Shown here piece after piece: positions 14,855 to 33,750 of a stretch of DNA of 64,000 bases. Location of the stretch: positions 9,424,001-9,488,000 of the forward strand of contig NZ_CP045096.1 of the NCBI RefSeq assembly GCF_009184865.1, read 5' to 3'. Origin of the DNA: Streptomyces phaeolivaceus. Lineage in GTDB: Bacteria; Actinomycetota; Actinomycetes; Streptomycetales; Streptomycetaceae. The translations under genes were made by a program, and so were the position numbers. Within the stretch, counting starts at the first letter, position 1; each line of letters starts with the position of its first letter. Under the pieces are notes generated by a model, which was given only the letters and a program-made list of their open reading frames with translations, did no database searches and was not told the DNA's origin.

Positions 14855-17543
<2,689 letters not shown>

Positions 17544-17550
17544 GGCGACC

Positions 17551-17580
17551 AACCTACCCTCATAAACACGACTGATTCAA
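17551..17580 (-). promoter_or_regulatory. Probable leaderless promoter of furA-katG
   Basis: On the minus strand TTGAAT (17575-17580), an 18-base spacer and TAGGTT (17551-17556) form a vegetative-type promoter. Only seven bases separate the -10 box from the furA ATG, and there is no ribosome site in between. Transcription therefore most likely begins at the A of the start codon. The AT-rich spacer is a natural place for FurA binding. Confidence 0.65.
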
Positions 17581-17661: not shown

Positions 17662-17683
17662 AAAAAGCCCGCTGCGCGCGGGC
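17662..17683 (-). terminator. Terminator downstream of lutC
   Basis: Read on the minus strand, GCCCGC, a 5-base loop and GCGGGC are followed at once by five T residues. It lies 70 bases past the lutC stop and would end the rha-lut transcript before the furA promoter. This is the only classical T-tailed hairpin I noticed in the window. Confidence 0.8.
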
Positions 17684-17752: not shown

Positions 17753-18445
17753 CTAGTCGCCGCTCCCGGTCACCAGCACCACCTCCAGGGTGCGGGGGCC
17801 GTGCACCCCCTCCACCCGGTCCAGTTCGATGTCGCTGGTGGCGGACGGGCCCGAGATCCAGGTCAACGGGCGGGTCGGGTCGAGGAGTTCGAGGGCCTGG
17901 GGGACCGACGACACGACCTGCTCCGGGACGCGTACGACGCAGATGTGGTGGTCGGGCACGAGGGTGATCCGGCGGCGGCCCTGGTCGGGGGAGCCGTCGA
18001 GGACGAGGGTGCCGGTCTCGGCGATCGCGAGGGCGCAGCCGGTGACCACGCTGTCGACCCGGTCCAGCTCGTGCGCGGTGCTCTCCCCGCGATCGGGCAC
18101 CCGCGTCACGTCCGTCGCCGCCGACAGCCACTCCTCGCGCAGCCCCGACGGCACCAGCACCGTGGCCGAACCGTGCGCGCGCAGCAGCCCCGCGACGACC
18201 TCGGCGAGCCCGTCCGCGTCCGTCCGGTGCACGAGCGCCCGGTAGTCGGCCAGGTTCTCCGCCAGCAACTCCACCGTCTCCGCGACGCTGCGCCCGCCGT
18301 GCTCCCGCAGATACCCCCGCTCGACGGCCCGCTCGTACGGAGCGTCGTCCCGTCGTTCGTCGCCGCGTTCGTCGCCGCGTTCGTCGGCTCGTACGTCGGC
18401 GAGGGCGCGCCGGACCCGGCCCAGGATCAGTTCCCTGCTGCTCAC
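17753..18445 (-). CDS. lutC: LutC: L-lactate utilisation protein, LUD domain
   Basis: A 230-residue LUD-domain protein, the third component of the LutABC L-lactate-oxidising complex. TGCALAIAETGTLVLDGSPDQ and TLVPDHHICVVRVPEQVV are the family's C-terminal core, with ISGPSATSDIELDRVEGVHG close to the end. The GTG at 18445 overlaps the lutB stop as GTGA. A short Asp-Glu-Arg repeat (ERGDERGDERRDD) near residues 20-32 comes from a 12-base DNA repeat around 18358-18393 and looks dispensable. It is the last gene of the minus-strand rhamnose-lactate run. Confidence 0.92.
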   Translation of the reverse strand: MSSRELILGRVRRALADVRADERGDERGDERRDDAPYERAVERGYLREHGGRSVAETVELLAENLADYRALVHRTDADGLAEVVAGLLRAHGSATVLVPSGLREEWLSAATDVTRVPDRGESTAHELDRVDSVVTGCALAIAETGTLVLDGSPDQGRRRITLVPDHHICVVRVPEQVVSSVPQALELLDPTRPLTWISGPSATSDIELDRVEGVHGPRTLEVVLVTGSGD

Positions 18446-19920
18446 TTGCCCGTCTCCTTTCCGCCGTTCGTCCGCTGCCACCAGTCCCGGAACGGCTCGG
18501 CGGGCAGCGCGGGAAGATCACGGCTGGCACTCCAGGCCCTGCCGGGGCCCGGCAGCGTACGGGGATGGAAGCGGCGGGTGCGGGACGCGAGCCGCTGTCC
18601 GGTGCGCAGCACGCCGGGGTGGCCGAACGCCCAGCGGGCCGCCCGCATCGCCGCCCGCTCGGCGGCGTGCCCCTTCGCGGGCTTGAGCACGACCTTGTCG
18701 CCCCGCTCCGTCACCGGCCCGCCCTGTGCGACCCGTTCCCGCAGATGCACCAGCACCTCCGGGATGTCGATGGCGACCGGGCACACCTCGTAGCAGGCAC
18801 CGCACAGTGAGGAGGCGTACGGCAGGGAGGAGTCGATCTCGCTTCCCGTGCCCCGGAGCTGAGGGCTGAGGATGGCACCGATCGGGCCCGGGTACACCGA
18901 GCCGTACGCGTGCCCGCCGGCACGCTCGTACACCGGGCACACGTTGAGACACGCCGAGCAGCGGATGCAGCGCAGGGCCTGCCGGCCGACCTCGTCGGCG
19001 AGTGTGTCGGTGCGGCCGTTGTCGATCAGGACCAGATGGAAGGTCTGCGGTCCGTCCTCGTCCGTCGTGCCCGTCCAGGTGGAGGTGTACGGGTTCATCC
19101 GCTCGGCGGTCGAGGAGCGGGGGAGGGTCTGCAGGAACACCTCCAGGTCCCGCCAGGTGGGCACGATCTTCTCGATGCCGACGACCGAGATCAGGGTCTC
19201 GGGGAGGGTGAGGCACATCCGGCCGTTGCCCTCGGACTCCACGACCACCAGCGTGCCGGTCTCGGCGACCATGAAGTTGGCGCCGGAGATCCCGACCTTG
19301 GCCCGCAGGAACTTCTCCCGCAGATGCAGCCGCGCGGCCTCCGCCAGTTCGGCGGGCGTGTCGGTGAGGCCCTCCGGCGCCGGGCGCCCCCACTCGCTCA
19401 TCTCGCGCGCGAAGATGTCCCGGATCTCGCCCCGGTTGCGATGGATCGCGGGGACGAGGATGTGCGAGGGCCGGTCCTTGCCCAACTGCACGATGAGTTC
19501 GGCGAGATCGGTCTCGTAGGCGGCGATGCCCTCGGCCTCCAGCGCCTCGTTCAGCCCGATCTCCTGCGTGGCCATCGACTTGACCTTGACGACCTCGCTC
19601 TCCCCGGTCGCCTTCACGAGATAGGTGACGATCCGGTTGGCCTCGTCCGCGTCGGCGGCCCAGTGCACCGTGCCGCCGGCCGCCTGCACCGACTCCTCCA
19701 ACCGCACGAGATACCGGTCGAGATGACGGAGCGTGTGGTCCTTGATCTGCTTGCCCGCCTCGCGCAGCTCCGCCCAGTCGGACATCTCCGCGACCGCGTT
19801 CGCGCGTTTGGCGCGGATGGTGTGGGTGGCGTGCCGCAGATTGCCGCGCAGGGTCGTGTTGTGCACGGCCTCGTGCGCGGCCTTCGGAAAGGCCGGCATG
19901 CCGAGATACGTTCCGCTCAT
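18442..19920 (-). CDS. lutB: LutB: iron-sulfur L-lactate oxidation protein
   Basis: A 492-residue LUD plus ferredoxin protein. The LUD part has NFMVAETGTLVVVESEGNGR. The two [4Fe-4S] motifs are CIRCSACLNVCPVYE and CGACYEVCPVAIDIP, about residues 320-390. LutABC oxidises L-lactate to pyruvate and feeds electrons to the respiratory chain. The ATG at 19920 overlaps the lutA stop and the gene overlaps lutC, so the three are translationally coupled. A longer open frame upstream lies inside lutA and is not used. Confidence 0.94.
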   Translation of the reverse strand: MSGTYLGMPAFPKAAHEAVHNTTLRGNLRHATHTIRAKRANAVAEMSDWAELREAGKQIKDHTLRHLDRYLVRLEESVQAAGGTVHWAADADEANRIVTYLVKATGESEVVKVKSMATQEIGLNEALEAEGIAAYETDLAELIVQLGKDRPSHILVPAIHRNRGEIRDIFAREMSEWGRPAPEGLTDTPAELAEAARLHLREKFLRAKVGISGANFMVAETGTLVVVESEGNGRMCLTLPETLISVVGIEKIVPTWRDLEVFLQTLPRSSTAERMNPYTSTWTGTTDEDGPQTFHLVLIDNGRTDTLADEVGRQALRCIRCSACLNVCPVYERAGGHAYGSVYPGPIGAILSPQLRGTGSEIDSSLPYASSLCGACYEVCPVAIDIPEVLVHLRERVAQGGPVTERGDKVVLKPAKGHAAERAAMRAARWAFGHPGVLRTGQRLASRTRRFHPRTLPGPGRAWSASRDLPALPAEPFRDWWQRTNGGKETGK

Positions 19921-20672
19921 TTCAGCGGCTCCTCTTCCGTACTCGCCAGGATCTCCGCGATGTGCACCGGCCGCAGGTCCGTCCGCAGCCGGGTCATCGT
20001 GCCGCCGAGGTGCATCAGACACGAGTTGTCGGCCGCGCACAGCACCTCGGCGCCCGTCGACTCGGCGTTGCGCACCTTGTCCAGACCCATCGCCGCCGAG
20101 ACATCGGCGTTCTTCACGGCGAACGTACCGCCGAAGCCACAGCACTCGTCGGCACCGGGCAGCTCCACCAACTCCAGCCCCTTCACGGCCTGGAGCAGCC
20201 TGCGCGGCCGTTCCCCGAGCCCCAGGCTCCGCAGCCCGTGACAGGTCGGGTGGTAGGTCACCTTGTGCGGGTAGTACGCGCCGACGTCCGTCACGCCCAG
20301 CACGTCCACCAGGAACTCGGTCAGCTCGTACGTCTTCGGCACGACCGGCGCCAGCGTCCGCGCCAGGGTGTCCCCGCGCCCCTCCGCCCGCGCCCGCTCA
20401 CCCATCCGCGGATACAGCTCCCGCACCATCGCCCCGCACGAGCCGGACGGTGTCACGATCGCCTCGTACTCCCGGAATACATCGGAGAACTGCCGGGCCA
20501 GCGGCTCGGCCTCCTGTCGGTACCCGGTGTTGTAGTGCGCCTGTCCGCAGCAGGTCTGCCCCATCGGGAAGTCGACGTCGACGCCCAGCCTGGTCAGCAG
20601 TTTCACCACGGCGCGGCCGGTGTCCGGATAGAGCGTGTCGTTGACACAGGTCAGGAACAGGGCGACACGCAT
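19917..20672 (-). CDS. lutA: LutA: cysteine-rich L-lactate oxidation protein
   Basis: A 251-residue protein of two CCG (DUF224-type) domains, seen as MGQTCCGQAHYNTGYRQ with PSGSCGAMV, and as YHPTCHGLRSLG with DECCGFGGTFAVKN. These ligate non-cubane iron-sulfur clusters. The ATG at 20672 follows AAGGAGCCGCG. It starts the lutABC segment 88 bases after rhaB on the same strand. The placement fits a role in handling lactate made from rhamnose. Confidence 0.94.
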   Translation of the reverse strand: MRVALFLTCVNDTLYPDTGRAVVKLLTRLGVDVDFPMGQTCCGQAHYNTGYRQEAEPLARQFSDVFREYEAIVTPSGSCGAMVRELYPRMGERARAEGRGDTLARTLAPVVPKTYELTEFLVDVLGVTDVGAYYPHKVTYHPTCHGLRSLGLGERPRRLLQAVKGLELVELPGADECCGFGGTFAVKNADVSAAMGLDKVRNAESTGAEVLCAADNSCLMHLGGTMTRLRTDLRPVHIAEILASTEEEPLK

Positions 20673-20760
20673 CGCGGCTCCTTGGGGGTCGATCATCGGA
20701 TGAGTGCAGAGTACGACGCGCGTACGCGGAGGGCGAGAGGCCCTCCGGGTACGGTTCCGC

Positions 20761-22242
20761 TCACCGCGCGGTGAGCCGGGCCTGAGCCGCGCGCCAGGCC
20801 GCCGGGTCGCCCTGCGGCTCGTACCGCACCAGCGGCTGGGTACGGGTGAGGAGTTGCCGCATCGAGGCCCGGTCGCCCACCAGGCCGTGCGCACGGGCCT
20901 GGACGAGGACATTGCCCAGGGCCGCCGCCTCCGCCGGTCCCGCCACCACCGGCAGCCCGCAGGCGTCGGCGGTGAGTTGGCAGAGCAGCGCGTTGCGGGT
21001 GCCGCCCCCCACGATGTGGACGACGTCGACCGGGTGGTCGGCCAGGGCCTGGGCCTCGGCGACGGCCCGCCGGTGGGCGAGGGCCAGCGAGTCGAGGATG
21101 CACCGGGTGATCTCGGCGGGCGTCTCGGGCACCGGCTGCCCCGACTCCCGGCACGCCTGCGCGATCCGCTCCGGCATCCGGCCGGGCGCGAGGAACGCCG
21201 AGTCCCCGGCGTCCACCACCGACCGCAGCGCGGGCACCCCCGCCGCGGCCCGCAGCAGCTCGCCGAGATCCGGGTCCCCCCACTCCCGTACGCACTCCTG
21301 GAGCAGCCACAGCCCCATGATGTTCCGCAGGTAGCGGACCGTGCCGTCGAGCCCCAGCTCATTGGTGAAGTTGGCGGCCCGGCTCGCCTCGGTCAGCACC
21401 GGGGCCGCCAGCTCAAGGCCGGCCAGCGACCAGGTGCCCGTGCAGATGTACGCGAACCGCTCGCCGCCGGTGGCCGGGACGGCGGCCACCGCCGAGGCGG
21501 TGTCGTGCGACCCGACCGTGGTCACCGGAACCGGCCCGGTCAGCCCGGTCTCCTCCAGCACCCGTTCCCGCAGCAGCCCCGCCGGATCCCCGGGCCGCCG
21601 CAGCGGCGCGAACAGCCCCAGATCGATGCCGAGCCGTTCGGCCACGTCGTACGACCAGTCACCCGTCCGGGGATCGATCAGCTGCGTCGTGGAGGCATTG
21701 GTCAGCTCGGTGCCCTGCTCCCCGGTCAGCCAGTACGTCAGCAGATCGGGGATGAGCAACAACCGCTTGGCGTACGCCAGTTGGGCGGACGACCGGGCGG
21801 CCGTCAACTGATACAGCGTGTTGAAGGGCGCGTACTGCAACCCGGTCGCCGCGTACAGCTCGGCGGCGGGCACGGTGGCCCACACCTTCTCCGGGACGCC
21901 CTCGGTACGGGCGTCCCGGTAGTGCACCGGATTGCCCAGCAGGGCCCCGTCCGCGTCCAGCAGCCCGTAGTCGACGGCCCAGCTGTCGATCCCGACGGAG
22001 TCGACCTGCCCGGCGGCCTTGAGCCCGTCCAGCACCCCGGCGTACAGCGACAGCACGTCCCAGCGCAGCCCCTCGGGCGTGCGCACGGGCCGGTTCGGGA
22101 ACCGGTGGGCCTCCACCAGCTCCAGCGAGTCCCGCCCCGCGCGGCCGACCATGACCCGACCGCTGGACGCGCCGAGGTCGACCGCCGCGTACGCCTTCAC
22201 GGACCCGTTCGAAGGAGTTCCGCTCATCGCCTGCGTGCTCAT
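20761..22242 (-). CDS. rhaB: RhaB: L-rhamnulokinase
   Basis: A 493-residue FGGY-type sugar kinase that phosphorylates L-rhamnulose at O1. VDLGASSGRVMVGR is the first phosphate loop; VGIDSWAVDYGLLD, HYRDARTEGV, PVTTVGSHDTASA, CTGTWSLAGLE and HIVGGGTRNALLCQL are kinase motifs. The ATG at 22242 overlaps the rhaE stop as ATGA; a second ATG five codons later is possible. It lies between the isomerase/aldolase genes and lutABC, in pathway order. Confidence 0.95.
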   Translation of the reverse strand: MSTQAMSGTPSNGSVKAYAAVDLGASSGRVMVGRAGRDSLELVEAHRFPNRPVRTPEGLRWDVLSLYAGVLDGLKAAGQVDSVGIDSWAVDYGLLDADGALLGNPVHYRDARTEGVPEKVWATVPAAELYAATGLQYAPFNTLYQLTAARSSAQLAYAKRLLLIPDLLTYWLTGEQGTELTNASTTQLIDPRTGDWSYDVAERLGIDLGLFAPLRRPGDPAGLLRERVLEETGLTGPVPVTTVGSHDTASAVAAVPATGGERFAYICTGTWSLAGLELAAPVLTEASRAANFTNELGLDGTVRYLRNIMGLWLLQECVREWGDPDLGELLRAAAGVPALRSVVDAGDSAFLAPGRMPERIAQACRESGQPVPETPAEITRCILDSLALAHRRAVAEAQALADHPVDVVHIVGGGTRNALLCQLTADACGLPVVAGPAEAAALGNVLVQARAHGLVGDRASMRQLLTRTQPLVRYEPQGDPAAWRAAQARLTAR

Positions 22243-24278
22243 CGCAGGAACGCGGCGGCCACGCCGGCGTCGACCGGGACGTGCAGCCCGGTGGTGTGGG
22301 TCAGTTCCCCGCCGGTCAGCGCGAACACCGCGTTCGCCACGTGCTCCGGCAGCACCTCGCGCTTGAGGATGGTCCGCTGGGCGTAGAACTCGCCGAGCTT
22401 CTCCTCCTCGATGCCGTAGGTCGCCGCGCGCTGGGCACCCCACCCGGCGGCGAAGATCCCCGAACCGCGCACCACACCGTCGGGGTTGATCCCGTTGACG
22501 CGGATGCCGTGCTCGCCCAGCTCGGCGGCGAGCAGCCGCACCTGGTGCGCCTGGTCGGCCTTGGTGGCGGAGTAGGCGATGTTGTTGGGCCCGGCGAAGA
22601 CGGCGTTCTTGGAGGCGATGTAGACGATGTCGCCGCCCAGCCCCTGCGCGATCATCACCCGGGCCGCCTCACGCGACACCAGGAACGAGCCACGGGCCAT
22701 GATGTCGTGCTGGAGGTCCCAGTCCTTGGCGGAGGTCTCCAGCAGCGGCTTGGAGATCGAGATCCCCGCGTTGTTGACGACCAGATCGACCCCGCCGAAG
22801 GCCAGCGCGGCGGCCTTGAAGGCCTCGGCGATCTGCCCCTCGTCCGTCACGTCGACGGTCACGGCGACGGCCTTGTCCGCCCCGCCCAGCTCCTCGGCCA
22901 CGGCGGCGGCGTTCCCCGCGTCGAGATCGGCGACGACGACACACGCCCCCTCGGCGACGAGCCGGTGCGCGATGGCCTTCCCGATCCCGCTGCCCGCGCC
23001 GGTCACCAGCGCGACCCGGGTCGCCAGCGGCTTCGGCCTCGGCATCCGCTGGAGCTTGGCCTCCTCCAGCGCCCAGTACTCGATGCGGAACTTCTCCGAC
23101 TCCTCGATCGGCGCGTACGTCGACACCGCCTCGGCGCCCCGCATCACGTTGATCGCGTTGACGTAGAACTCGCCGGCCACCCGCGCGGTCTGCTTGTCCT
23201 TGCCGAAGCTGAACATGCCCACGCCGGGGATCAGCACGATCGCCGGGTCGGCGCCGCGCATCGCGGGGGAGTCGGGCTCGGCGTGCCGCCGGTAGTAGGC
23301 GGCGTACTCCTCCCGGTACTCGGCGTGCAGCTCCTTCAGTCGGCCGATGGCCTCGTCGAGCCCGGCGGTCGGCGGCAGATCCAGCACCAGCGGCCGGACC
23401 TTGGTCCGCAGGAAGTGGTCCGGGCACGAGGTACCCAGCGCGGCCAGCCTCGGGTGCTCCGCGCTCGCCAGGAAGTCGAGGACGACCTCCGCGTCGGTGA
23501 AGTGCCCGACCTGCGCCTTGTCCTGCGAGGCGATCGCCCGGACGTACGGCGCCAGCGCGGCGGCCCGCTCCCGGCGCGCGGCGGCTTCGAGGGCCTCGTA
23601 TCCCGCCACGACGGGCCCGAAGGGCTCCGCCTTCCCCTTCTCCTCCAGGAACCGCTCAGCCGTACGAATGATGTGCAGCGAGTTCTTCTCGCACTCCTCG
23701 GCGGTGTCGCCCCAGGCGGTGATCCCGTGCCCACCGAGCACACACCCGACGGCCCCCGGGTTCTCCCGCTTCACGGCGGCGATGTCCAGGCCCAGCTGGA
23801 ACCCGGGCCGGCGCCAGGGCACCCACACCACGCTGTCCCCGAAACACTCGGCGGTCAGCTTCTCCCCGTCGGCCGCGCAGGCGAGCGCGATCCCGGAGTC
23901 CGGGTGCAGATGATCGACATGCGCGGCGTCGACGAGCCCGTGCATCGCGGTGTCGATCGACGGCGCCGCGCCGCCCTTCCCGTGCAGGCAGTAGTCGAAC
24001 GCGGCGACCATCTCGTCCTCGCGCTCGACCCCCGGGTACACCTCGACGAGCGCCCGCATCCGGTCCAGCCGCAGCACGGCGAGCCCCGCCTCGGTGAGCG
24101 TCCCCAGGTCACCCCCGGACCCCTTCACCCACATCAGCTCCACATCACCCCCGGTGACGGGATCGGTGTCGGTCCCCTTCGCGGACGCGTTGCCACCGGC
24201 GTAGTTGGTGTTCCGCGGATCGGCACCGAGCCGACGGGAACGAGCGAGAAGGGCGGCGGCTTCGGGATGGGTTGCCAT
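22239..24278 (-). CDS. rhaE: RhaE-type bifunctional L-rhamnulose-1-phosphate aldolase / L-lactaldehyde dehydrogenase
   Basis: A 679-residue two-domain protein. Residues about 1-400 form a class II aldolase with zinc ligands in VDHLHPDSGIALACA and GCVLGGHGITAWGD. Residues about 425-679 form a short-chain dehydrogenase with VALVTGAGSGIGKAIAHRL, LVVNNAGIS and the YSATKA active site. Homologues (RhaEW/RhaD-SDR) split rhamnulose-1-phosphate into DHAP and lactaldehyde and oxidise the latter to lactate. Adjacent lutABC would then oxidise the lactate. It is coupled to rhaB by overlap and separated from rhaI by an inverted-repeat element. Confidence 0.95.
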   Translation of the reverse strand: MATHPEAAALLARSRRLGADPRNTNYAGGNASAKGTDTDPVTGGDVELMWVKGSGGDLGTLTEAGLAVLRLDRMRALVEVYPGVEREDEMVAAFDYCLHGKGGAAPSIDTAMHGLVDAAHVDHLHPDSGIALACAADGEKLTAECFGDSVVWVPWRRPGFQLGLDIAAVKRENPGAVGCVLGGHGITAWGDTAEECEKNSLHIIRTAERFLEEKGKAEPFGPVVAGYEALEAAARRERAAALAPYVRAIASQDKAQVGHFTDAEVVLDFLASAEHPRLAALGTSCPDHFLRTKVRPLVLDLPPTAGLDEAIGRLKELHAEYREEYAAYYRRHAEPDSPAMRGADPAIVLIPGVGMFSFGKDKQTARVAGEFYVNAINVMRGAEAVSTYAPIEESEKFRIEYWALEEAKLQRMPRPKPLATRVALVTGAGSGIGKAIAHRLVAEGACVVVADLDAGNAAAVAEELGGADKAVAVTVDVTDEGQIAEAFKAAALAFGGVDLVVNNAGISISKPLLETSAKDWDLQHDIMARGSFLVSREAARVMIAQGLGGDIVYIASKNAVFAGPNNIAYSATKADQAHQVRLLAAELGEHGIRVNGINPDGVVRGSGIFAAGWGAQRAATYGIEEEKLGEFYAQRTILKREVLPEHVANAVFALTGGELTHTTGLHVPVDAGVAAAFLR

Positions 24279-24375
24279 GTGCGATCAATCCTTACGGTGA
24301 GATGGGTACGGGGTGCGGCTCGGGGGGTGGGGGTGCGTTGCGGGGTGCGTTGTCGGGCGCGGGTGAGTGGGGCTT

Positions 24376-24470
24376 CGCGCGGTTCCCCGCGCCCCTAAGG
24401 GATCAGGCCCTGCGGGCCTGAAAAGCACGGGGCGCAGCCCCGGCTTTTCAGGGGCGCGGGGAACCGCGCG
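24376..24470. repeat. Long inverted repeat (Streptomyces REP-like element) between rhaE and rhaI
   Basis: A perfect 21-bp inverted repeat (arms 24376-24396 and 24450-24470, each containing GGTTCCCCGCGCCCCT or its complement) encloses two smaller hairpins: AGGCCC/GGGCCT near 24405-24419 and AAAAGC/GCTTTT around 24421-24448. The same arm sequence is familiar from many intergenic sites in Streptomyces genomes. Located inside the presumed rhaI-rhaE transcript, it could attenuate or process the mRNA. Confidence 0.88.
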
Positions 24471-24554
24471 ACCAGCCGCGAACCGGCCCGCATTCCGCAT
24501 CCGACAGAACTCGGCAGACGAAACGCGGCAATCGGCTCCAGCCCAGCGCGGCGG

Positions 24555-25724
24555 TCACGCCCCCCAACCCGCCTGGTCCCCTCCCACCCGCTCCTCCACG
24601 ATCTTCGACGCCCACCCGGACCGCCGATACGCCCCCATGGGATCCGCGTCCAACCCCATCTCCTCCCGCACCTCCCGAAGCAACGGCCGCACATCCGTGT
24701 TGTACGCGTCCATCACGACCGCGTTCGCCTCCAGCACATCCCCGTCCCGCTGAGCGACGGCAAGCGCCCCCCGGTCGACCAGGAGCGCCTTCGCCGTGGC
24801 CTCCTGCACATTCATCACGGACCGGATGATCGCCGGGATCTTCGCCTCGATGTTGTGGCACTGGTCGAGCATGAACGCGACCTCGGGAGTGAACCCACCC
24901 CCACGCACGACCTCGTACATGATCCGGAACAGCTGGAACGGATCGGCGGCCCCGACCATCAGGTCGTCGTCGGCGTAGAACCGGGAGTTGAAGTCGAACG
25001 CCCCGAGCTTCCCCTCCCGCAGCAGCGTCGCCACGATGAACTCGATGTTGGTGCCCGGCGCGTGATGCCCGGTGTCGACCACGACCTGCGCCTTCGGCCC
25101 GAGCTTCAGGCAGTGCGCGTAGGCGGTGCCCCAGTCCGGGACGTCCGTCGAGTAGAACGCCGGCTCGAAGAACTTGTACTCCAGCAGCATCCGCTGGTCG
25201 TCGCCGAGCCGCGCGTACACCTCGGCGAGCCCCTCGGCCAGCCGGTCCTGCCGCTCACGGATGTCGTCCTGGCCGGGATAGTTCGTACCGTCCGCGAACC
25301 ACAGCTTCAGATCCCGCGAGCCGGTCGCGTCCATGATGTCGACGCACTCCAGCAGATGATCGACGGCCTTGCGCCGGACCGTCGCGTCCGGATGGCAGAT
25401 GCTCCCCAGCTTGTAGTCGTCGTCCTGGAAGGTGTTGGAGTTGATGGCGCCCAGCTTCACGCCACGCTCCTGCGCGTGCTTGGCCAGCTCCGCGTATCCG
25501 TCGGAGCCCTCGACCTTGTCCCAGGGGATGTGGAGCGCCACGGTCGGGGCCACGCCGGTGAACTCGTGGACCTTCCCGGCGTCGTCCAGCTTCTCCCATG
25601 GATCACGGGGGACACCCTGTTGGGCGAACACCTTGAAGCGGGTTCCGGAGTTGCCGTACGCCCACGACGGCGTCTCGACGGCCTGTGTCTTGAGGGCGGC
25701 CTTCACCGCGGCGAGCTCGGTCAC
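24555..25724 (-). CDS. rhaI: RhaI: L-rhamnose isomerase
   Basis: A 389-residue xylose-isomerase-like enzyme of the Pseudomonas stutzeri/actinobacterial RhaI type, converting L-rhamnose to L-rhamnulose. Metal-site strands include LGAINSNTFQDDDYKLGS, LKLWFADGTNYPGQDD, LLEYKFFEPAFYSTDV, VVDTGHHAPGTNIEF and FDFNSRFYADDDLM. It is the first gene of the minus-strand rhamnose unit and diverges from the importer operon, with LacI-like palindromes in between. About 276 bases separate it from rhaE and contain only the inverted-repeat element. Confidence 0.95.
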   Translation of the reverse strand: MTELAAVKAALKTQAVETPSWAYGNSGTRFKVFAQQGVPRDPWEKLDDAGKVHEFTGVAPTVALHIPWDKVEGSDGYAELAKHAQERGVKLGAINSNTFQDDDYKLGSICHPDATVRRKAVDHLLECVDIMDATGSRDLKLWFADGTNYPGQDDIRERQDRLAEGLAEVYARLGDDQRMLLEYKFFEPAFYSTDVPDWGTAYAHCLKLGPKAQVVVDTGHHAPGTNIEFIVATLLREGKLGAFDFNSRFYADDDLMVGAADPFQLFRIMYEVVRGGGFTPEVAFMLDQCHNIEAKIPAIIRSVMNVQEATAKALLVDRGALAVAQRDGDVLEANAVVMDAYNTDVRPLLREVREEMGLDADPMGAYRRSGWASKIVEERVGGDQAGWGA

Positions 25725-25750
25725 GTCAGGGCTCCTACCGGCATTGATGT

Positions 25751-25764
25751 CTGAAACGATTCAG
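25751..25764. promoter_or_regulatory. LacI-type operator near the rhaI start
   Basis: CTGAAACGATTCAG is a 14-bp near-perfect palindrome with a central CG, 27 bases upstream of the rhaI start. It matches the usual LacI-family layout and shares the TGAAA half-site with the importer operator. The local LacI regulator at 32.6 kb is the likely ligand-responsive binder. Confidence 0.7.
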
Positions 25765-25847
25765 CACCGGAAACTATGAGCGCCTCGCCGGGCTGTCAAC
25801 CCCTGTGCTCAATACCGTTCTCCGTGACCCGGTTGTGACCACTTCTA

Positions 25848-25862
25848 TCGAAAGAATTTCGA
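25848..25862. promoter_or_regulatory. Palindrome in the rhaI/importer intergenic region
   Basis: TCGAAAGAATTTCGA is a perfect palindrome of 6+3+6 bases, midway between the divergent genes. Its spacing differs from the two TGAAA operators, so it may be a different site, or a weak auxiliary one. Confidence 0.5.
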
Positions 25863-25872
25863 CCGAAACCCA

Positions 25873-25902
25873 TTGACGTGACATGCGACTGGTGCCTAAC
25901 GT
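25873..25902 (+). promoter_or_regulatory. Candidate promoter of the rhamnose importer operon
   Basis: TTGACG (25873-25878) and TAACGT (25897-25902) are separated by 18 bases. Transcription would start near 25909, directly before the palindrome at 25917-25928, which is a good position for repression. Confidence 0.6.
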
Positions 25903-25916
25903 CCCGGCAACCTAGT

Positions 25917-25928
25917 TGAAACCTTTCA
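25917..25928. promoter_or_regulatory. LacI-type operator of the importer operon
   Basis: TGAAACCTTTCA has perfect 5-bp arms around a central CC. It lies just past the predicted transcription start and 55 bases before the ATPase start. The half-site TGAAA is shared with the rhaI-side operator. Confidence 0.7.
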
Positions 25929-25982
25929 CGACGCAGTGGGGCAGCTTCTCCGCTAGCCACCGGCCGTCGTCGAGGAGCCCCC

Positions 25983-27500
25983 ATGACCCACCGGTCCGAC
26001 ACGGGTCCGGCCCCCGTTCTCGCGTTGAAGGGCGTTTCCAAGTCCTTCGGTGCCGTACGCGCCCTGCGGGACGTGTCCCTCGAACTGTTCCCGGGCGAGG
26101 TGCACGCACTCGCCGGGGAGAACGGCGCGGGCAAGTCGACCCTGATCAAGAGCCTCGCCGGGGTGCACCGACCGGACTCCGGTCAGGTGCTCCTCGACGG
26201 CGAACCCACGGTCTTCCACGGCCCGGCCGACGCCCGGGACGCGGGCATCGCCGTGATCTACCAGGAGCCCACCCTCTTCCCCGACCTTTCGATCGCCGAG
26301 AACATCTTCATGGGCCGCCAGCCGCGCCGCGCCCTCGGCCGGATCGACCACAAGGCCACCCACGCGGCGACCCTCGCCCTGATGGCGCGGCTCGGTGTCG
26401 AACTCGACCCCGACCGCCCGGCGCGCGGCCTGTCCATCGCCGACCAGCAGATCGTCGAGATCGCCAAGGCGCTCTCCTTCGACGCCCGCGTCCTGATCAT
26501 GGACGAGCCGACGGCGGCCCTCACCGGCAGCGAGGTGGCCCGGCTCTTCGGGGTCGTCCGCACCCTGCGCGAGCAGGGCTCCGCCGTCCTCTTCATCTCC
26601 CACCGGCTGGAGGAGATCTTCCAGATCTGCCAGCGGGTCACCACCCTGCGCGACGGCGCCTGGATCTCCAGCGAGCCGATCGAGGGCATGACCGAGGACG
26701 ACCTGGTCCGCCGCATGGTCGGCCGCGACCTGGACGAGCTGTACCCGAAGCAGGACGTCGAGGCGGGCGAAGTCGCGCTGAGCGTACGCCGGTTGACCCG
26801 CGAGGGTGTCTTCACCGATGTCTCCTTCGAGGTCCGCCGAGGCGAGATCGTCGGCCTGGCCGGCCTCGTCGGCGCCGGCCGCACCGAGGTGGCACGGGCC
26901 GTCTTCGGCATCGACCGCTGGGACGCGGGCGAGGTCGACCTCGACGGCAAGGCGCTCACCAACGGCGCCCCGTCCACCGCCATGGCCGCCGGGCTCGCCC
27001 TGGTCCCCGAGGACCGCCGCGCCCAGGGCCTGGTGATGGACATGTCCATCGAGCGCAACATCGGCCTCACCGGACTCCGTACGACCGTGAAGGGCGGCCT
27101 CGTCGACCGCGGCGCCGAGCGCAGCCGCTCCCTCGACTGGGCGGTCAAGCTCCAGGTCAAGTACGCCCGGATCGCCGACACCGTGAACACCCTGTCCGGC
27201 GGCAACCAGCAGAAGGTCGTCCTCGCCAAGTGGCTCGCCACCGGCCCGAAGGTGCTGATCGTCGACGAGCCCACCCGAGGCATCGACGTCGGTACGAAGG
27301 CCGAGGTGCACCGCCTCCTCAGCCGGCTCGCCGCCGACGGGGTCGCCGTACTGATGATCTCCTCCGACCTGCCCGAGATCCTCGGCATGGCCGACCGCGT
27401 GCTCGTGATGCACGAGGGCCGGCTCACCGCCGAGATCCCTCGCTCCGAAGCCACCGAGGAATCCGTGATGGCCGCAGCCACCGGGAGGGCCGCCGCATGA
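25983..27500 (+). CDS. Rhamnose ABC importer, double ATPase subunit (RhaT/RbsA-like)
   Basis: A 505-residue protein with two ABC domains, as in the CUT2 sugar importers. Domain 1 (about residues 12-240) has [47 protein letters not shown] and [11 protein letters not shown]. Domain 2 (about 255-500) has a degenerate Walker [15 protein letters not shown], signature [15 protein letters not shown] and [14 protein letters not shown]. It energises the two permeases whose genes follow with overlapping ends (ATGA). Substrate assignment rests on the flanking rhamnose genes, not on this sequence. Confidence 0.93.
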
Positions 27501-28537
27501 CGGTGACCACCCCTCAGACCCCTCCCGTCACCGAGGTGCCCAAGTCCAGCGGCACCCGGCTCGTGGACCGCGTCTTCAAGATGCGGGAACTCGCCATCCT
27601 GGTCGTCTTCCTGGTGATGATCGTCGTCACCCAGCTCGGCAACAGCGAGTTCCTCACCGAACAGGGCATCAAGGACCTGCTGCTCAACGCGACCATCCTC
27701 GTGCTGGTCGCGGTCGGCCAGTCCCTGGTCGTCATCACCCGGAACGTCGACCTGTCCGTCGGCTCCACCCTCGGCATCAGCGCCTTCGCCGCCGGTACGT
27801 ATCTCCAGGGCGGCGGCAACGCGGTCGTGGCCGTGGCGCTCGCGGTCCTGATGGGCATCGGCTTCGGTCTGCTGAACGGACTGCTCGTCAGCCTCGGCCA
27901 GGTGCCCGCCCTCGTCGTCACCCTGGGCACGCTGTACATCATCCGGGGCATCGACTCGATCTGGGTCGGCTCCCGCCAGATCACCGCGTCCGCCCTCCCC
28001 GACGGCTTCGTCGACTTCGGCTCCGGCGGCATCTCGGCGGTGCCGTATCTGGCGCTGATCGCGGTGGTGGTGCTGGTGGCCACGGCGTACTACATGAAGC
28101 ACTTCGGCAGCGGGCGCGAGCTGTACGCCCTCGGCTCCAACCCGGAGGCCGCCCGGCTCGCCGGCATCCCGGTCCGCAAGCGGATCCTGGTCGCCTACAC
28201 CTTCTGCGGCGCCCTCGCCGGCCTCGCCGGGGCGCTCTACCTGGCCCGCTTCGGCAACGTCGACTCCAGCACCGGCAACGGCTACGAACTCACCGTCGTC
28301 AGCGCGGTCGTCGTCGGCGGTGTCGTCTTCACCGGCGGCTCCGGCAGCGTCTACGGCGCGGCGCTCGGCGCGCTGCTGCTGACCTCCATCAACAGCGTGC
28401 TGCCCGCCCTCGGCGTCAGCTCGGTGTGGGTGCTGGCCATCAACGGCATCCTGCTCATCCTCGCCATCGCCGTGGACCGTGTGGTCGCGCTGCGGGTGGC
28501 GGCAGCCCTGAAGAAGAGGAACGCCCGCCATGGCTGA
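27497..28537 (+). CDS. Rhamnose ABC importer permease 1
   Basis: A 346-residue CUT2 (RbsC-like) permease. Eight to ten hydrophobic segments are visible. The family landmarks [39 protein letters not shown] and [17 protein letters not shown] are present; the last is the cytoplasmic loop that docks to the ATPase. The ATG overlaps the ATPase stop, and the 3' end overlaps the next permease by 8 bases. The two permeases would form a heterodimer. Confidence 0.92.
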
Positions 28538-29504
28538 CTCCACGCTCTCTCGCGCGGTCCGCTGGGACACCGTGGTCGGCGCCACCCTGATCGTCGTGCT
28601 CCTGCTGTCCTTCACCACCGTGGACGGCTTCGGCAACGCGCTCAATCTGTCCTTCCTCATCGGCAACACCCTGCCGATCGCCCTGGTCGCCCTCCCGATG
28701 ACCCTCCTCGTGGTCTCCGGCGAGATCGATCTGTCGGTCGCCTCCACCGCCGGACTGTCCGGCGCGGTGATGGGCGCCCTGTGGAACCAGGGCCTCACCA
28801 TCGAGGCGATCATCCCGATCTGCCTGCTCCTCGGCGTGGTCTGCGGACTGATCAACGGCCTGCTGGTCACCCGGCTCGGCCTGTCCTCCCTCGCCGTCAC
28901 CATCGGCACCCTCGCCGCCTACCGGGGCATCGCACAGATCGTGCTCGGCTCCGACGCGGTGACCGACTTCCCCACGCAGTACCTGGACTTCGCGGCCGGC
29001 CGGATCGGCGACAGCTTCGTCCCACAGGCCTTCATCCCCTTCCTGGTGCTGCTGATCATCGCCGTGATCGCCCTGCACGCCACCCCGTTCGGGCGCTCGC
29101 TGTTCGCGATCGGCGCCAGTGAGGAGGCCGCGCGCTTCACCGGTATCCGCGTCAAGCGGCAGAAGCTGATCCTGTTCACGGTGACCGGCCTGATGGCCTC
29201 GCTCACCGGCATCTTCTGGGCACTGCACTACGCCAGCGCCCGCTACGACAACGCGACCGGCCTCGAACTCTCCGTCATCGCCGCGGTGCTCCTCGGCGGC
29301 ATCGACTTCGACGGCGGCAAGGGGACGCTCGGCGGCGCGATCGCCGGGGTGTTCCTGCTGGGCGCTCTGCAGAACGTGATGAGTCTGCAGGACGTCTCGG
29401 CACAGTCGCAGATCGTCGTCACCGGCGTGCTGCTCGTTCTCTCCGTGCTCGGGCCGAGGGTGGCACGGCAACTCGCCGTCGCGCGTGCCCGATCGACCGG
29501 CTGA
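28530..29504 (+). CDS. Rhamnose ABC importer permease 2
   Basis: A 324-residue CUT2 permease, paralogous to its neighbour. Landmarks are VVSGEIDLSVASTAGLSGAV, LVTRLGLSSLAVTIGTLAAY and IGASEEAARFTGIRVKR, with hydrophobic membrane spans throughout. It starts 8 bases inside the previous gene. It is followed after 64 bases by the substrate-binding lipoprotein. Confidence 0.92.
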   Translation: MADSTLSRAVRWDTVVGATLIVVLLLSFTTVDGFGNALNLSFLIGNTLPIALVALPMTLLVVSGEIDLSVASTAGLSGAVMGALWNQGLTIEAIIPICLLLGVVCGLINGLLVTRLGLSSLAVTIGTLAAYRGIAQIVLGSDAVTDFPTQYLDFAAGRIGDSFVPQAFIPFLVLLIIAVIALHATPFGRSLFAIGASEEAARFTGIRVKRQKLILFTVTGLMASLTGIFWALHYASARYDNATGLELSVIAAVLLGGIDFDGGKGTLGGAIAGVFLLGALQNVMSLQDVSAQSQIVVTGVLLVLSVLGPRVARQLAVARARSTG

Positions 29505-29568
29505 CGTCCACCACTTCTCCCTTCTCTCTTCCCTCGCTTCTCCCTTCCCTGTAAAGGACTCCATCGCC

Positions 29569-30651
29569 ATGCGCAGAGCAACCCTCCGTCGTTCCTGTGC
29601 GGCCCTCGCCGCCGTCACCTCCTTCGCGCTCGCCGTCACCGCCTGTGGCGGCACCACGAAGAGCGACGTCAAGGACGACTCCGCCTCGGCCGCGGCCACC
29701 GGCAAGGCCGACCCGAACGCCGAGCTGAAGAAGGGCCTGACCGTCGGCTTCCTGCCGAAGCAGGTCAACAACCCGTACTTCACCTCCGCCGACAAGGGTG
29801 GCGAGGCGGCCCTGAAGGAGCTGGGCTCCAGCTACAAGGAGGTCGGCCCGTCCAGCGCCACGGACACCTCCGGCCAGGTCAACTACGTCAACACGCTCAC
29901 CCAGCAGCAGGTCGACGCCATCGCCGTCTCCGCGCAGGACCCGGGCGCCCTGTGCACCGCGCTCAAGCAGGCCATGAGCAACGACATCAAGGTCGTCACC
30001 TACGACTCCGACACCAAGCCGGAGTGCCGCAACGCCTTCGTCTCGCAGGCCAGCGCCGAGGACCTGGGCCGCACCGAGGTGCAGCTGCTCGCCGAACAGA
30101 TCGGCTACAAGGGCGAGATCGCCGTTCTGTCGGCCGCGCAGACCGCGACCAACCAGAACACCTGGATCGACTTCATGAAGGACGAGCTGAAGGACGCCAA
30201 GTACAAGGACATCAAGCTCGTCAAGGTCGCCTACGGTGACGACGACGCCCAGAAGTCCTTCCAGCAGACCCAGGGCCTGCTGCAGGAGTACCCGAACCTG
30301 AAGGGGATCATCTCCCCGACCACGGTCGGCATCAAGGCCGCCGCCCAGTACCTGTCGGGCTCCAAGTACAAGGGCAAGGTCAAGCTGACCGGCCTCGGCA
30401 CCCCCAACGACATGCGCAAGTACGTCAAGGACGGCACCGTCGAGGGCTTCGAGCTGTGGGACCCGGCGAAGCTCGGCGAGCTGGCCGCCCGTACCTCGGT
30501 GGCGCTGGTCTCCGGCCAGATCACCGGCAAGGAGGGCGAGACCTTCACCGCCGGCGACATGGGCGAGTACACCATCGGCAAGGACGGTGTGATCAGCCTC
30601 GGCAAGCCGACCGTGTTCAACAAGGAAAACATCGACCAGTTCGACTTCTGA
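29569..30651 (+). CDS. rhaS: Rhamnose-binding lipoprotein (RhaS)
   Basis: A 360-residue periplasmic-binding-protein-like (PBP type 1) receptor. The signal peptide ends in a lipobox, FALAVTACGG, so the mature protein should be anchored by Cys. GFLPKQVNNPYFTSADKGGE and VNTLTQQQVDAIAVSAQDPG are characteristic of CUT2 sugar receptors. The ATG at 29569 follows AAAGGA; an upstream in-frame start would remove the signal from the N-terminus. Residues after the lipobox are Ser/Ala/Thr-rich, as usual for a linker. RhaS naming is by context. Confidence 0.92.
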   Translation: MRRATLRRSCAALAAVTSFALAVTACGGTTKSDVKDDSASAAATGKADPNAELKKGLTVGFLPKQVNNPYFTSADKGGEAALKELGSSYKEVGPSSATDTSGQVNYVNTLTQQQVDAIAVSAQDPGALCTALKQAMSNDIKVVTYDSDTKPECRNAFVSQASAEDLGRTEVQLLAEQIGYKGEIAVLSAAQTATNQNTWIDFMKDELKDAKYKDIKLVKVAYGDDDAQKSFQQTQGLLQEYPNLKGIISPTTVGIKAAAQYLSGSKYKGKVKLTGLGTPNDMRKYVKDGTVEGFELWDPAKLGELAARTSVALVSGQITGKEGETFTAGDMGEYTIGKDGVISLGKPTVFNKENIDQFDF

Positions 30652-30668
30652 ACTACGAAGGGGTGTTG

Positions 30669-30989
30669 ATGAAGCGCGTGTGCTTTCTGCTGAAGGTCAG
30701 GGCGGACCGCCTCGACGAGTACCGCGAGCGGCACGCCGCCGTGTGGCCCGAGATGCTTGAGGCGCTCTCGGCGACCGGCTGGCACAACTACTCGCTCTTC
30801 CTGCGCGAGGACGGCCTGCTGGTCGGCTACTTGGAGACCGAGGACTTCGAAGCCGCCCTGGCCGGCATGGAGGCCACCGACGTCAACGCCCGCTGGCAGA
30901 CGGAGATGGCGCCGTTCTTCGAGTCGCTGGACGGCGCCCGCCCCGACGAGGCCATGAAACCCCTCACCGAGGTCTTCCACCTCGCCTAG
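30669..30989 (+). CDS. rhaM: RhaM: L-rhamnose mutarotase
   Basis: A 106-residue alpha/beta-barrel-dimer enzyme interconverting rhamnose anomers. It shows CFLLKVRADRLDEYRERHAA, VWPEMLEALSATGWHNYSLF and YLETEDFEAALAGME, including the conserved His and Tyr region of the family. It follows rhaS by 17 bases with GAAGGGG before the ATG, so it is part of the importer transcript. Mutarotase would speed supply of the anomer used by RhaI. Confidence 0.93.
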   Translation: MKRVCFLLKVRADRLDEYRERHAAVWPEMLEALSATGWHNYSLFLREDGLLVGYLETEDFEAALAGMEATDVNARWQTEMAPFFESLDGARPDEAMKPLTEVFHLA

Positions 30990-31048
30990 ACCCCCCACGT
31001 CGCAGCACCCTCCCCCTCCCCACCTCGCTCGACAATGGAGTCCCCGAG

Positions 31049-32473
31049 ATGAAGAGACGTACCCTGCTCGGTGCCGCACTCGCCGGTGCCGTCGTGTCCC
31101 CCGTCCTCGGCGCCGCGACCGCCCGTGCCGCGGACCCCGGCCCGTCCGTCAGCCAGACCGGCAACACCCTGCTCGACAGCCAGGCCCTCTTCTTCGTGTC
31201 CTACGACGGCCTGGTCAACAACAACTCGTTCCAGAAGAACGGCCTGTTGACCTACAAGGGTTACCAGTACGCCGTCTGGTACACCGCCGACCGCAACGCC
31301 GTCGTCGGCCGCCGCGTCCTCGGCTCCAGCACCTGGTCCACCGTCAAGGTCGGCCACACCCTGCGCTACAACGACTCCCACAACGTCATCTCCATGGGCG
31401 TCTCCAAGGTCGACGGCCGCCTCCACCTCAACATGGACTCGCACAGCGACGGCTTCACCTACGTCAAGTCGGTCGCCGGACTGCTGGACAACCCGGCCGG
31501 ACTCAGCTGGATCGCGAGCCGCTTCGGCGCCCCGCAGTCCACCCTCGACGGGCTCGCGCTCACCTCGCAGTTCACGTATCCGCAGTTCGTCTCGATGCCC
31601 GACGGCAAGCTCCAGCTGAGCTACCGCGTCGGTGTCTCGGGCAACGGCCGCAACGCCATCGCCGAGTACAACGGGACCTCCTGGACCAACCTCGGCGAGT
31701 GGACCAGCTCCACCGGCACCTACACCAGCGAGCACGGCTCCAGCACCGTCCGCAACATGTACCTGCACGGCATCGACTACGACAAGAACGGCCGGCTGCA
31801 CTCGTTCTTCACCTGGCGCGAGCAGAACGGCGCCGTGATGTGCAACGGCGGCGGCATCACCAACCACGACACCGGCTACGTCTACTCGGACGACCTGGGC
31901 CGCACCTGGCGCAACAACGCGGGCGCGGTCGTCGGCACCACCGGCGGCTCCGACAGGGTCGCCGTCACCGACAGCGGCCTGGTCGTCGACGCGCTGAACC
32001 CGGACCACTCCCTGATGAACCAGGAGAGCCAGTTCACCGACTCGGCCGGCCGCCCGCACGCCATCATCAGCTACGTCCCCGGCCGATTCGGCCAGTGCAC
32101 CACGAACTACGTCACCAACCGCACCGCCAACGGCCGTGCCTTCCACGTCCGCAGGAACGCCTCCGGCACCTGGCAGAAGACCGAGATCCCGGTCGCCCTC
32201 GGCTCCAGCCAGCGCACCAAGCTGGCCCTGGACAAGTACAACAACGCGTACGCGATCCTGCCCTTCGGCCGGATATGGGGGGCGTCGGCCGCCTCCGGCT
32301 ACACCGACTGGAAGGTGCTGTTCGACGCCAGCGGCCTCAACGCCTTCGGGGAGGTCGTGATCGACGAGACGCGGATCGCCCAGGACAACGCGCTGTCCGT
32401 GATGTACCAGGTGAAGTCCAGCGGTACGACCCCGTCGGCGCTCCGCGTCGTCGACTTCGCCCTGCCCGCCTGA
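31049..32473 (+). CDS. Exported BNR-4 beta-propeller protein, candidate rhamnosyl-uronate polysaccharide lyase
   Basis: A 474-residue secreted protein with a Tat-like signal (MKRRTLLGAALAG ... ATARAADPG). The mature part looks like the BNR_4 propeller, a fold shared by ulvan lyases and rhamnose-glucuronate lyases. NDSHNVISMGVSKVDGRLH and LNMDSHSDGFTYVKS provide His111 and His132, FTYPQFVSMPDGKLQLSYR provides Tyr177 and Arg193, and MYLHGIDYDKNGRLHSFFTW follows. These spacings are close to those I recall for the PL25 active site. It lies between rhaM and the LacI gene in the rhamnose block. Cleavage of a Rha-GlcA-containing glycan to release rhamnose is an inference; no enzymatic class is certain. 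Confidence 0.7.
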   Translation: MKRRTLLGAALAGAVVSPVLGAATARAADPGPSVSQTGNTLLDSQALFFVSYDGLVNNNSFQKNGLLTYKGYQYAVWYTADRNAVVGRRVLGSSTWSTVKVGHTLRYNDSHNVISMGVSKVDGRLHLNMDSHSDGFTYVKSVAGLLDNPAGLSWIASRFGAPQSTLDGLALTSQFTYPQFVSMPDGKLQLSYRVGVSGNGRNAIAEYNGTSWTNLGEWTSSTGTYTSEHGSSTVRNMYLHGIDYDKNGRLHSFFTWREQNGAVMCNGGGITNHDTGYVYSDDLGRTWRNNAGAVVGTTGGSDRVAVTDSGLVVDALNPDHSLMNQESQFTDSAGRPHAIISYVPGRFGQCTTNYVTNRTANGRAFHVRRNASGTWQKTEIPVALGSSQRTKLALDKYNNAYAILPFGRIWGASAASGYTDWKVLFDASGLNAFGEVVIDETRIAQDNALSVMYQVKSSGTTPSALRVVDFALPA

Positions 32474-32586
32474 TTCCCGTACGAGCGGCGTGTCCGCGCA
32501 CCTGACCGGGCCGTTCCCGCGGCGGCCCCGAAGGTAATGTGACCGTAGGCCCGCCGCTCCCGTACCTTCCTGGAGGTCCCTGTCCG

Positions 32587-33618
32587 ATGTCGCAGCCGGT
32601 GGGTATCAAGGACGTCGCCGCAGCCGCCGGAGTCTCCGTCGGCACGGTCTCCAACGTCATCAACCGGCCCGACTCGGTGGCCTCCGGTACCCGGGCCCGG
32701 GTGCTGGCCGCGATCGACCGCCTCGGCTATGTCCGCAGCGAGTCGGCACGCCAGCTGCGGGCCGGGCGGAGCCGGATCATGGGGCTGCTCGTGCTCGACA
32801 TGGGCAACCCCTTCTTCGTCGACGTCACGCGCGGTGCGGAGCGGGCCGCGCGCGACGCCGGACTCGGTGTGATGGTCTGCAACAGCGCGCAGAGCGCGGG
32901 CGAGGAGGCCGAGTACCTCTCGCTCTTCGCCGAACAGCGGGTGCGCGGTGTGCTGCTCACCCCCGCCGACGCGACGGGACGCAACATCGAGGCGTTCCGC
33001 CGCCACGGCATCCCCTTCGTCCTCGTCGACCGGGTCGCCGAGGGCACCACCGAGTGCTCCGTCTCCGTTGACGACGTCGCGGGCGGCGCCCTCGCCGCAC
33101 GGCATCTGGTGGACGCGGGCCACCGCTCCCTGGCGTACGTCAGCGGACCGGCGGGTCTCAACCAGGTCCGCGACCGCCGTACGGGCGCCCTGAACGCCCT
33201 GCGGGAGGCGGGACTCGGCCCCGAGGCGCTGCGCGAACTGCCCACCGAACGCCTCGACGTGGCCGCCGGCCGGGACGCGGGCGCCCGCCTCCTCGGCCTC
33301 GCCGAACGCCCCACCGCCGTCTTCTGCGCCAACGACCTGCTCGCCCTCGGCGTCCTCCAGGCCATGTACGCGGCCGGGGTGAGCGTCCCCGACGACCTCG
33401 CCATCGTCGGCTACGACGACATCGAGTTCGCCGCCGCGGCGGCCGTCCCCCTCACCTCCGTACGGCAGCCCGCCGTCACCATGGGCGCCCTCGCCGCCGA
33501 ACTCCTCCTGGAGGAGACCGAGACCGAGGCCGAGACCGCGCCCGTCCCGCACGAGCACCGGCGGGTCGTCCTCCAGCCGGAACTGGTGGTACGGCGCTCC
33601 AGCCTCTCCGCGCGCTGA
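32587..33618 (+). CDS. LacI-family regulator of the rhamnose genes
   Basis: A 343-residue repressor. The helix-turn-helix is at the extreme N-terminus, IKDVAAAAGVSVGTVSNVIN, followed by the hinge SARQLRAGRSRIMG and a PBP-1 ligand domain with VLDMGNPFFVDVTRGAE, FCANDLLALGVLQAM and IVGYDDIEFAAAAAVPLTS. The ATG at 32587 follows CTGGAGG. Its place at the end of the importer block, and the matching palindromes at 25.75 and 25.92 kb, suggest control of both divergent units with rhamnose or a derivative as inducer. Confidence 0.92.
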   Translation: MSQPVGIKDVAAAAGVSVGTVSNVINRPDSVASGTRARVLAAIDRLGYVRSESARQLRAGRSRIMGLLVLDMGNPFFVDVTRGAERAARDAGLGVMVCNSAQSAGEEAEYLSLFAEQRVRGVLLTPADATGRNIEAFRRHGIPFVLVDRVAEGTTECSVSVDDVAGGALAARHLVDAGHRSLAYVSGPAGLNQVRDRRTGALNALREAGLGPEALRELPTERLDVAAGRDAGARLLGLAERPTAVFCANDLLALGVLQAMYAAGVSVPDDLAIVGYDDIEFAAAAAVPLTSVRQPAVTMGALAAELLLEETETEAETAPVPHEHRRVVLQPELVVRRSSLSAR

Positions 33619-33750
33619 GCCCGGTGGTCGCGCGCTGAGCGGTCGTTCAGTAGACCGCCTCGGGAATTTCTTGATCCACGGGGTCGGCCGGACGGAGAAT
33701 CTGTGCTGGACTGGACCACGGCCTGGAATCCGTCCGCCCAAGGAGCCCTG

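Follow-up and report, generated by a model that had tools for sequence, protein, structure and literature searches.

The window, a 64,000-nucleotide stretch of Streptomyces phaeolivaceus DNA from a genome of 10.2 Mb in 2 contigs, carries rhamnose (rha) and lactate (lut) genes in a block at 17753-33618, bounded by the lutC stop and the lacI stop. Proteins were assigned by NCBIfam bit scores against curated cut-offs and, for the remainder, by Pfam domains. The features, in window coordinates, are as follows:

17667..17683, minus strand: terminator-like stem with TTTTT, 3′ of lutC (pattern match)
17753..18445, minus strand: lutC (LUD_dom, 76 bits)
18442..19920, minus strand: lutB (TIGR00273, 447.5 bits, over the cut-off of 444.8)
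19917..20672, minus strand: lutA (CCG domain, 135 bits; start chosen by an RBS-like AAGGAG)
20689..20713, minus strand: conserved leader TACTCTGCACTCATCCGATGATCGA before lutA, a candidate -10 box and possible operator (kept in relatives)
20761..22242, minus strand: rhaB, rhamnulokinase (TIGR02627, 470 bits, below the cut-off of 528; FGGY N and C domains)
22239..24278, minus strand: rhaEW, rhamnulose-1-P aldolase/lactaldehyde dehydrogenase fusion (TIGR02632, 1106 bits, over the cut-off of 568)
24555..25724, minus strand: rhaI, L-rhamnose isomerase (TIGR02635, 662 bits, over the cut-off of 531)
25752..25763, unstranded: RhaR-like operator TGAAACGATTCA, rhaI/importer gap (pattern match)
25917..25928, unstranded: RhaR-like operator TGAAACCTTTCA, rhaI/importer gap (pattern match)
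25983..27500, plus strand: importer ATP-binding protein (sugar ABC ATPase models, each below its cut-off)
27497..28537, plus strand: importer permease 1 (profile search)
28530..29504, plus strand: importer permease 2 (profile search)
29569..30651, plus strand: importer rhamnose binding protein (TIGR02637, 493 bits, over the cut-off of 342)
30669..30989, plus strand: rhaM, L-rhamnose mutarotase (PF05336, 112 bits)
31049..32473, plus strand: exported BNR_4 protein, PL42-like rhamnose-glucuronate lyase (FoRham1 7esl, 6.1e-31; 12 of 13 active-site residues)
32587..33618, plus strand: LacI-family regulator, probable RhaR (LacI and Peripla_BP_3 domains)
33703..35052, plus strand: proline-iminopeptidase-like alpha/beta hydrolase, next to the rha block at the end opposite lut and used as search anchor

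The minus strand thus reads rhaI, rhaEW, rhaB, lutA, lutB, lutC, and the importer genes, rhaM, the BNR_4 gene and lacI run divergently from rhaI; the gene list and strands of the earlier note were borne out by the NCBIfam and Pfam matches. rhaI, rhaEW and rhaB are all present together, rhaB falling under its model's cut-off but carrying FGGY domains and standing in context. The lutABC domain order is as expected (CCG; LUD, 4Fe-4S and LutB_C; LUD), and in the profile search LutA and LutC reached no curated NCBIfam cut-off. As already pointed out in that note, three of the five junctions are 4-base overlaps (rhaEW/rhaB, lutA/lutB and lutB/lutC); rhaI and rhaEW lie 276 nt apart, and rhaB and lutA 88 nt apart. 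The rhaI-rhaEW gap is 103-150 nt in 41 of 59 relatives, and in the window it contains, at 24376-24510, a dispersed palindromic repeat with at least 78 match rows genome-wide (best 40 of 460 candidates). The proposed T-tailed terminator after lutC does have its stem and TTTTT, but such sites are no commoner in the region than in shuffles (4 versus a mean of 4.5). Past it, at 14855-17552, lie a katG-like catalase-peroxidase gene and a Fur-family-like gene, both named by inspection.

The pattern TGAAACNNTTCA matched six times in the 10.2-Mb genome and its reversed control not once. Two of the six matches lie in the divergent rhaI/importer gap, in agreement with the earlier proposal that the divergent genes share operator DNA, and the 57 divergent gaps from named relatives all contain an exact operator site, a count that includes three identical contigs of one assembly. 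Both a LacI-type regulator and a palindromic site 5′ of the rha genes are therefore present, RhaR-likeness being set here independently of a published logo. Of the other four matches, one stands directly 5′ of a secreted GH78-type alpha-L-rhamnosidase gene (L092:7052-10334) and another directly 5′ of genes for an ABC binding protein and permease (L091:6148-12894), with a PcRGLX-like secreted protein encoded farther along the same strand. The last two, at C2:3354727, inside an ORF, and at C2:6977198, adjoining a transposase-like ORF, were discarded as chance.

RhaEW activity has been published for other species. Judging by the protein families, rhamnose would be freed extracellularly, then imported, isomerised and phosphorylated; cleavage by RhaEW would yield DHAP and L-lactate, and LutABC would convert lactate from any source, including rhamnose, to pyruvate. 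The route from rhamnose to pyruvate laid out in the earlier note fits these families and the reading of RhaEW-type Actinomycetales in the available portion of a 2013 study (PMC3870299), which placed lactate dehydrogenase genes in RhaR regulons and so extended the pathway to pyruvate. That note had also called the lut-rhamnose linkage established in some RhaEW-type regulons, and rightly so: the linkage is not new. According to the part of the paper available, rha operon 2 of Paenarthrobacter ilicis CR5301 likewise contains three lactate dehydrogenase genes, reported as up-regulated (PMC10174432). In the present genome lutB occurs in one copy only, and the single full-length FMN alpha-hydroxy-acid enzyme falls under the cut-offs of all lactate-oxidising models.

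The exported BNR_4 protein matched FoRham1 over most of its length, and the conserved residues include the equivalents of Asp83, His85, His105 and Arg166. The equivalent of Tyr26 is Phe, which is common to the 37 homologues aligned. What had been put forward as a candidate lyase gains support from this similarity and can be named PL42-like. As its role is drawn from the PL42 family, the protein probably releases the rhamnose that caps arabinogalactan side chains; in the literature on PL42, nothing relevant was found among the matches listed. The gene is optional, occurring in 32 of 53 loci in which lacI and rhaM are both visible; it was found in 38 loci overall, all with lut.

To follow the linkage across relatives, we collected 80 loci by a RhaEW search of named genomes; three of the loci (L071-L073) are identical contigs from a single assembly. 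rhaB was present in 79, and in 59 of these the next gene, in the same orientation, is lutA; two of the other 20 are cut off by a contig end near rhaB, and one of those two (L063) shows the lutA start. Across the order, RhaEW exceeded its cut-off in 130 of 197 genomes; in at least 91 of the 130, lutB follows co-directionally no more than 8 kb downstream. Among the matches listed, lutB lay elsewhere in 12 and was missing in 27; in one of the 12 (G124), rhaB sits beside lut and the separation is due only to a contig split. LutB matches, one of them weak (4.8e-10), occurred in 191 of the 197 genomes, with or without rhaEW, and the rows nearest to the window's own in the LutB tree came from Streptomyces albicerus, S. 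tauricus and S. dioscori. Two Geodermatophilus loci (L087, L090) have lut near rha on the opposite strand. In L050, L064, L069, L071-L073 and L083, the last 1 or 10 bases of rhaB also belong to lutA. There is therefore no room for a promoter between them, so that lut is probably expressed with rhaB, and in these Streptomyces loci rha-lut coupling is probably real. Overlapping and gapped arrangements both occur in the genus, and the window is of the gapped type.

The linkage and the overlaps are what would be expected if rhaI-rhaEW-rhaB-lutABC formed one RhaR-controlled transcript, with lutABC chiefly the last step of rhamnose use and the leader before lutA an RNA or translation element. The regulon inference available from PMC3870299 and the reported up-regulation in Paenarthrobacter (PMC10174432, as far as available) point the same way, as does the lactate that RhaEW would yield in a genome whose only full-length FMN enzyme scores below every lactate-oxidising cut-off. 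We nevertheless consider a single transcript unlikely because of the leader, a gap devoid of RhaR-like sites and the persistence of lut, mostly with its leader, where rha is missing.

The leader was examined in 53 rhaB-lutA gaps of at least 41 nt, including that of this genome. TACNCT occurred 25-75 nt 5′ of lutA in 45 of them, compared with a mean of 1.03 and a maximum of 5 in shuffles, and it fits TANNNT, a loosely defined -10 pattern in Streptomyces. Aligned on TACNCT, the 45 gaps share roughly TAC[GC]CTGCACTCATCCGATGATCGA, with weakly conserved columns just upstream and a second block, approximately GTCTCCCC, 19-26 nt upstream of TAC. With up to 3 mismatches allowed, the genome has a single copy of the 25-mer. 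Locus L057, outside the 53 gaps, has the leader with TAGGCT, its computed gap of 0 being an artefact. A RhaR-like site in the gap was rejected, as TGAAACNNTTCA gave zero matches in all rhaB-lutA gaps examined with up to 2 mismatches allowed; a RhaR site belonging to the lactate genes themselves, as would be expected of a member of the Actinomycetales RhaR regulon, is accordingly absent here at that tolerance. The palindrome TCATCCGATGA is exact in just 29 of 50 gaps, and an operator within the leader is for this reason suggestive only. The two further exact matches to TCATCSGATGA in the genome fall inside or between genes that look unrelated, and revealed no lut regulator. Stem-loops 3′ of rhaB were rejected as strong evidence (37 of 50 gaps versus 26.9 expected). 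As the palindrome is exact in so few gaps and stems are hardly above chance, there is no visible block to read-through from rhaB. Across the region, a scan for the standard sigma-70 pattern gave no promoter-like site, and no standard -35 box was seen. In the literature on lutABC, rhamnose and lactate regulators in Streptomyces, including the available part of an Endozoicomonas paper (PMC6955870), we found no published account of a lut promoter at this locus. Separate promoters were among the findings that the earlier note named as telling against its reading, and the conserved promoter-like leader suggests that lut has one.

Loci that have lut but no rha were sought by anchoring on the flanking hydrolase, not on lut. 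The count drew on the first 105 rows listed, with hydrolase identity of at least 75%. Of the 81 genomes whose hydrolase reaches 80% identity, 68 had rha and lut, 10 had lut only and none had rha only; in the remaining 3, the contig ends inside the rha block (G155, G143) or neither set lies in the 15 kb read on one side (G031). G043 has both sets; its rhaEW spans two frames, and so does its lutB. The 24 rows below 80% comprised 5 with both, 1 with lut only and 18 with neither, and the eleventh lut-only locus read has a hydrolase identity of 78%. The leader was found in 10 of these 11 loci (TACNCT in 9, TAGGCT in L109), with L105 having a decayed form. lacI is intact between hydrolase and lut in L128, L131 and L142, and is likewise kept in the lut-only G151. 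L107 retains a lacI fragment (aa 277-335, 7e-12) and a rhaB-like remnant visible in DNA only (68% over 356 nt, partly the leader), for which a rhaB protein search gave no match; L125, outside the eleven, retains lacI and pieces of importer genes next to lut. The kept or fragmentary lacI and the importer fragments point to deletion of the rha block. rhaEW is found elsewhere in the genomes of G162 and G183, two of the eleven, and of G151, and what is missing there is therefore the block at this site. In G183, the lut-only locus (L131) coexists with another locus, of the overlapping kind, that has both rha and lut (L132), and their LutB group together. Lut-only rows do not form a single clade in the LutB tree, which suggests several losses of the rha block; the automatic lut-only label in this tree includes L121, a distant and probably chance match, and omits L105. 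The distant standalone lut loci L111-L124 are otherwise without the leader.

That lut outlasts rha, and that lutB lies apart from rhaEW in the 12 genomes among the matches listed (G124 being merely contig-split), could also mean that the two are mere neighbours, with lutABC playing no part in rhamnose use and its position inherited and functionally neutral. This seems very improbable, as most RhaEW-bearing genomes retain the linkage, divergent lineages have overlapping rhaB and lutA genes and the substrate of LutABC is the product of RhaEW.

Overall, we favour, with a probability of roughly 0.7, a model where lutABC is a separate L-lactate unit driven by a promoter of its own between rhaB and lutA, directly downstream of a LacI/RhaR-type regulon that would comprise lacI, the PL42-like lyase gene, rhaM, the importer genes, rhaI, rhaEW and rhaB. 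Read-through from rhaB may raise lut expression on rhamnose, but would not be required. Speaking against a separate unit are the same-strand linkage in most RhaEW genomes, the rhaB/lutA overlaps, the missing -35 box and sigma-70 match, and the lack of anything to stop read-through. Comparison with relatives nonetheless suggests that lut has its own promoter and outlives rha, and that the two are neighbours able to cooperate rather than one sealed unit. The earlier description of the block as self-contained is supported for the pathway, given the families and the available text of PMC3870299, but not for lutABC inside one rhamnose unit, against which the leader, the missing RhaR-like site and the retention of lut without rha all argue. 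More tentatively, and with somewhat less than even odds, the 25-nt leader might be the operator-promoter of a lut-specific lactate regulator, the sole LutABC being doubly controlled by rhamnose read-through and a lactate promoter, and the rha block having been repeatedly deleted in Streptomyces with lut kept.

These comparisons caution that genes on the same strand with a short gap need not be one operon; natural deletions may reveal where the functional border runs. They also provide a testable candidate lut promoter in Streptomyces, and link a PL42-like lyase, a possible extracellular source of rhamnose, to a rhamnose importer and regulator.

The rha genes of the window are an ordinary, previously described type of rhamnose cluster. 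With the Actinomycetales RhaR regulon (Rodionova et al. 2013, PMC3870299) they share RhaI, RhaEW, RhaB, an ABC importer, a LacI-type regulator, a rhamnosidase and an oligosaccharide importer, the rhamnosidases and the latter importer lying under like sites in that LacI-type regulon too; some of those regulons include lactate dehydrogenase genes, as found here beside rha. Unlike the regulons in the available portion of that account, the present locus has, 5′ of lut, a conserved leader in place of a RhaR-like site, and it carries a PL42-like lyase gene within the cluster. Rha operon 2 of P. ilicis CR5301 (PMC10174432, available in part) is also actinobacterial and combines rha with three lactate dehydrogenase genes, a likeness drawn from its description alone. 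The lutABC (lldEFG) L-lactate oxidation operon has the same three-gene order as here, where LutB exceeds its curated cut-off; in the window it adjoins rha genes, and neither a lactate permease nor a GntR-type regulator was recognised next to it. Finally, the exported protein shares sequence similarity and 12 of 13 named active-site residues with the PL42 enzyme FoRham1, but, in contrast to FoRham1 as described in the available parts of PMC8377490 and PMC10951650, it is bacterial, lies in a rhamnose gene cluster and has Phe in place of Tyr26.
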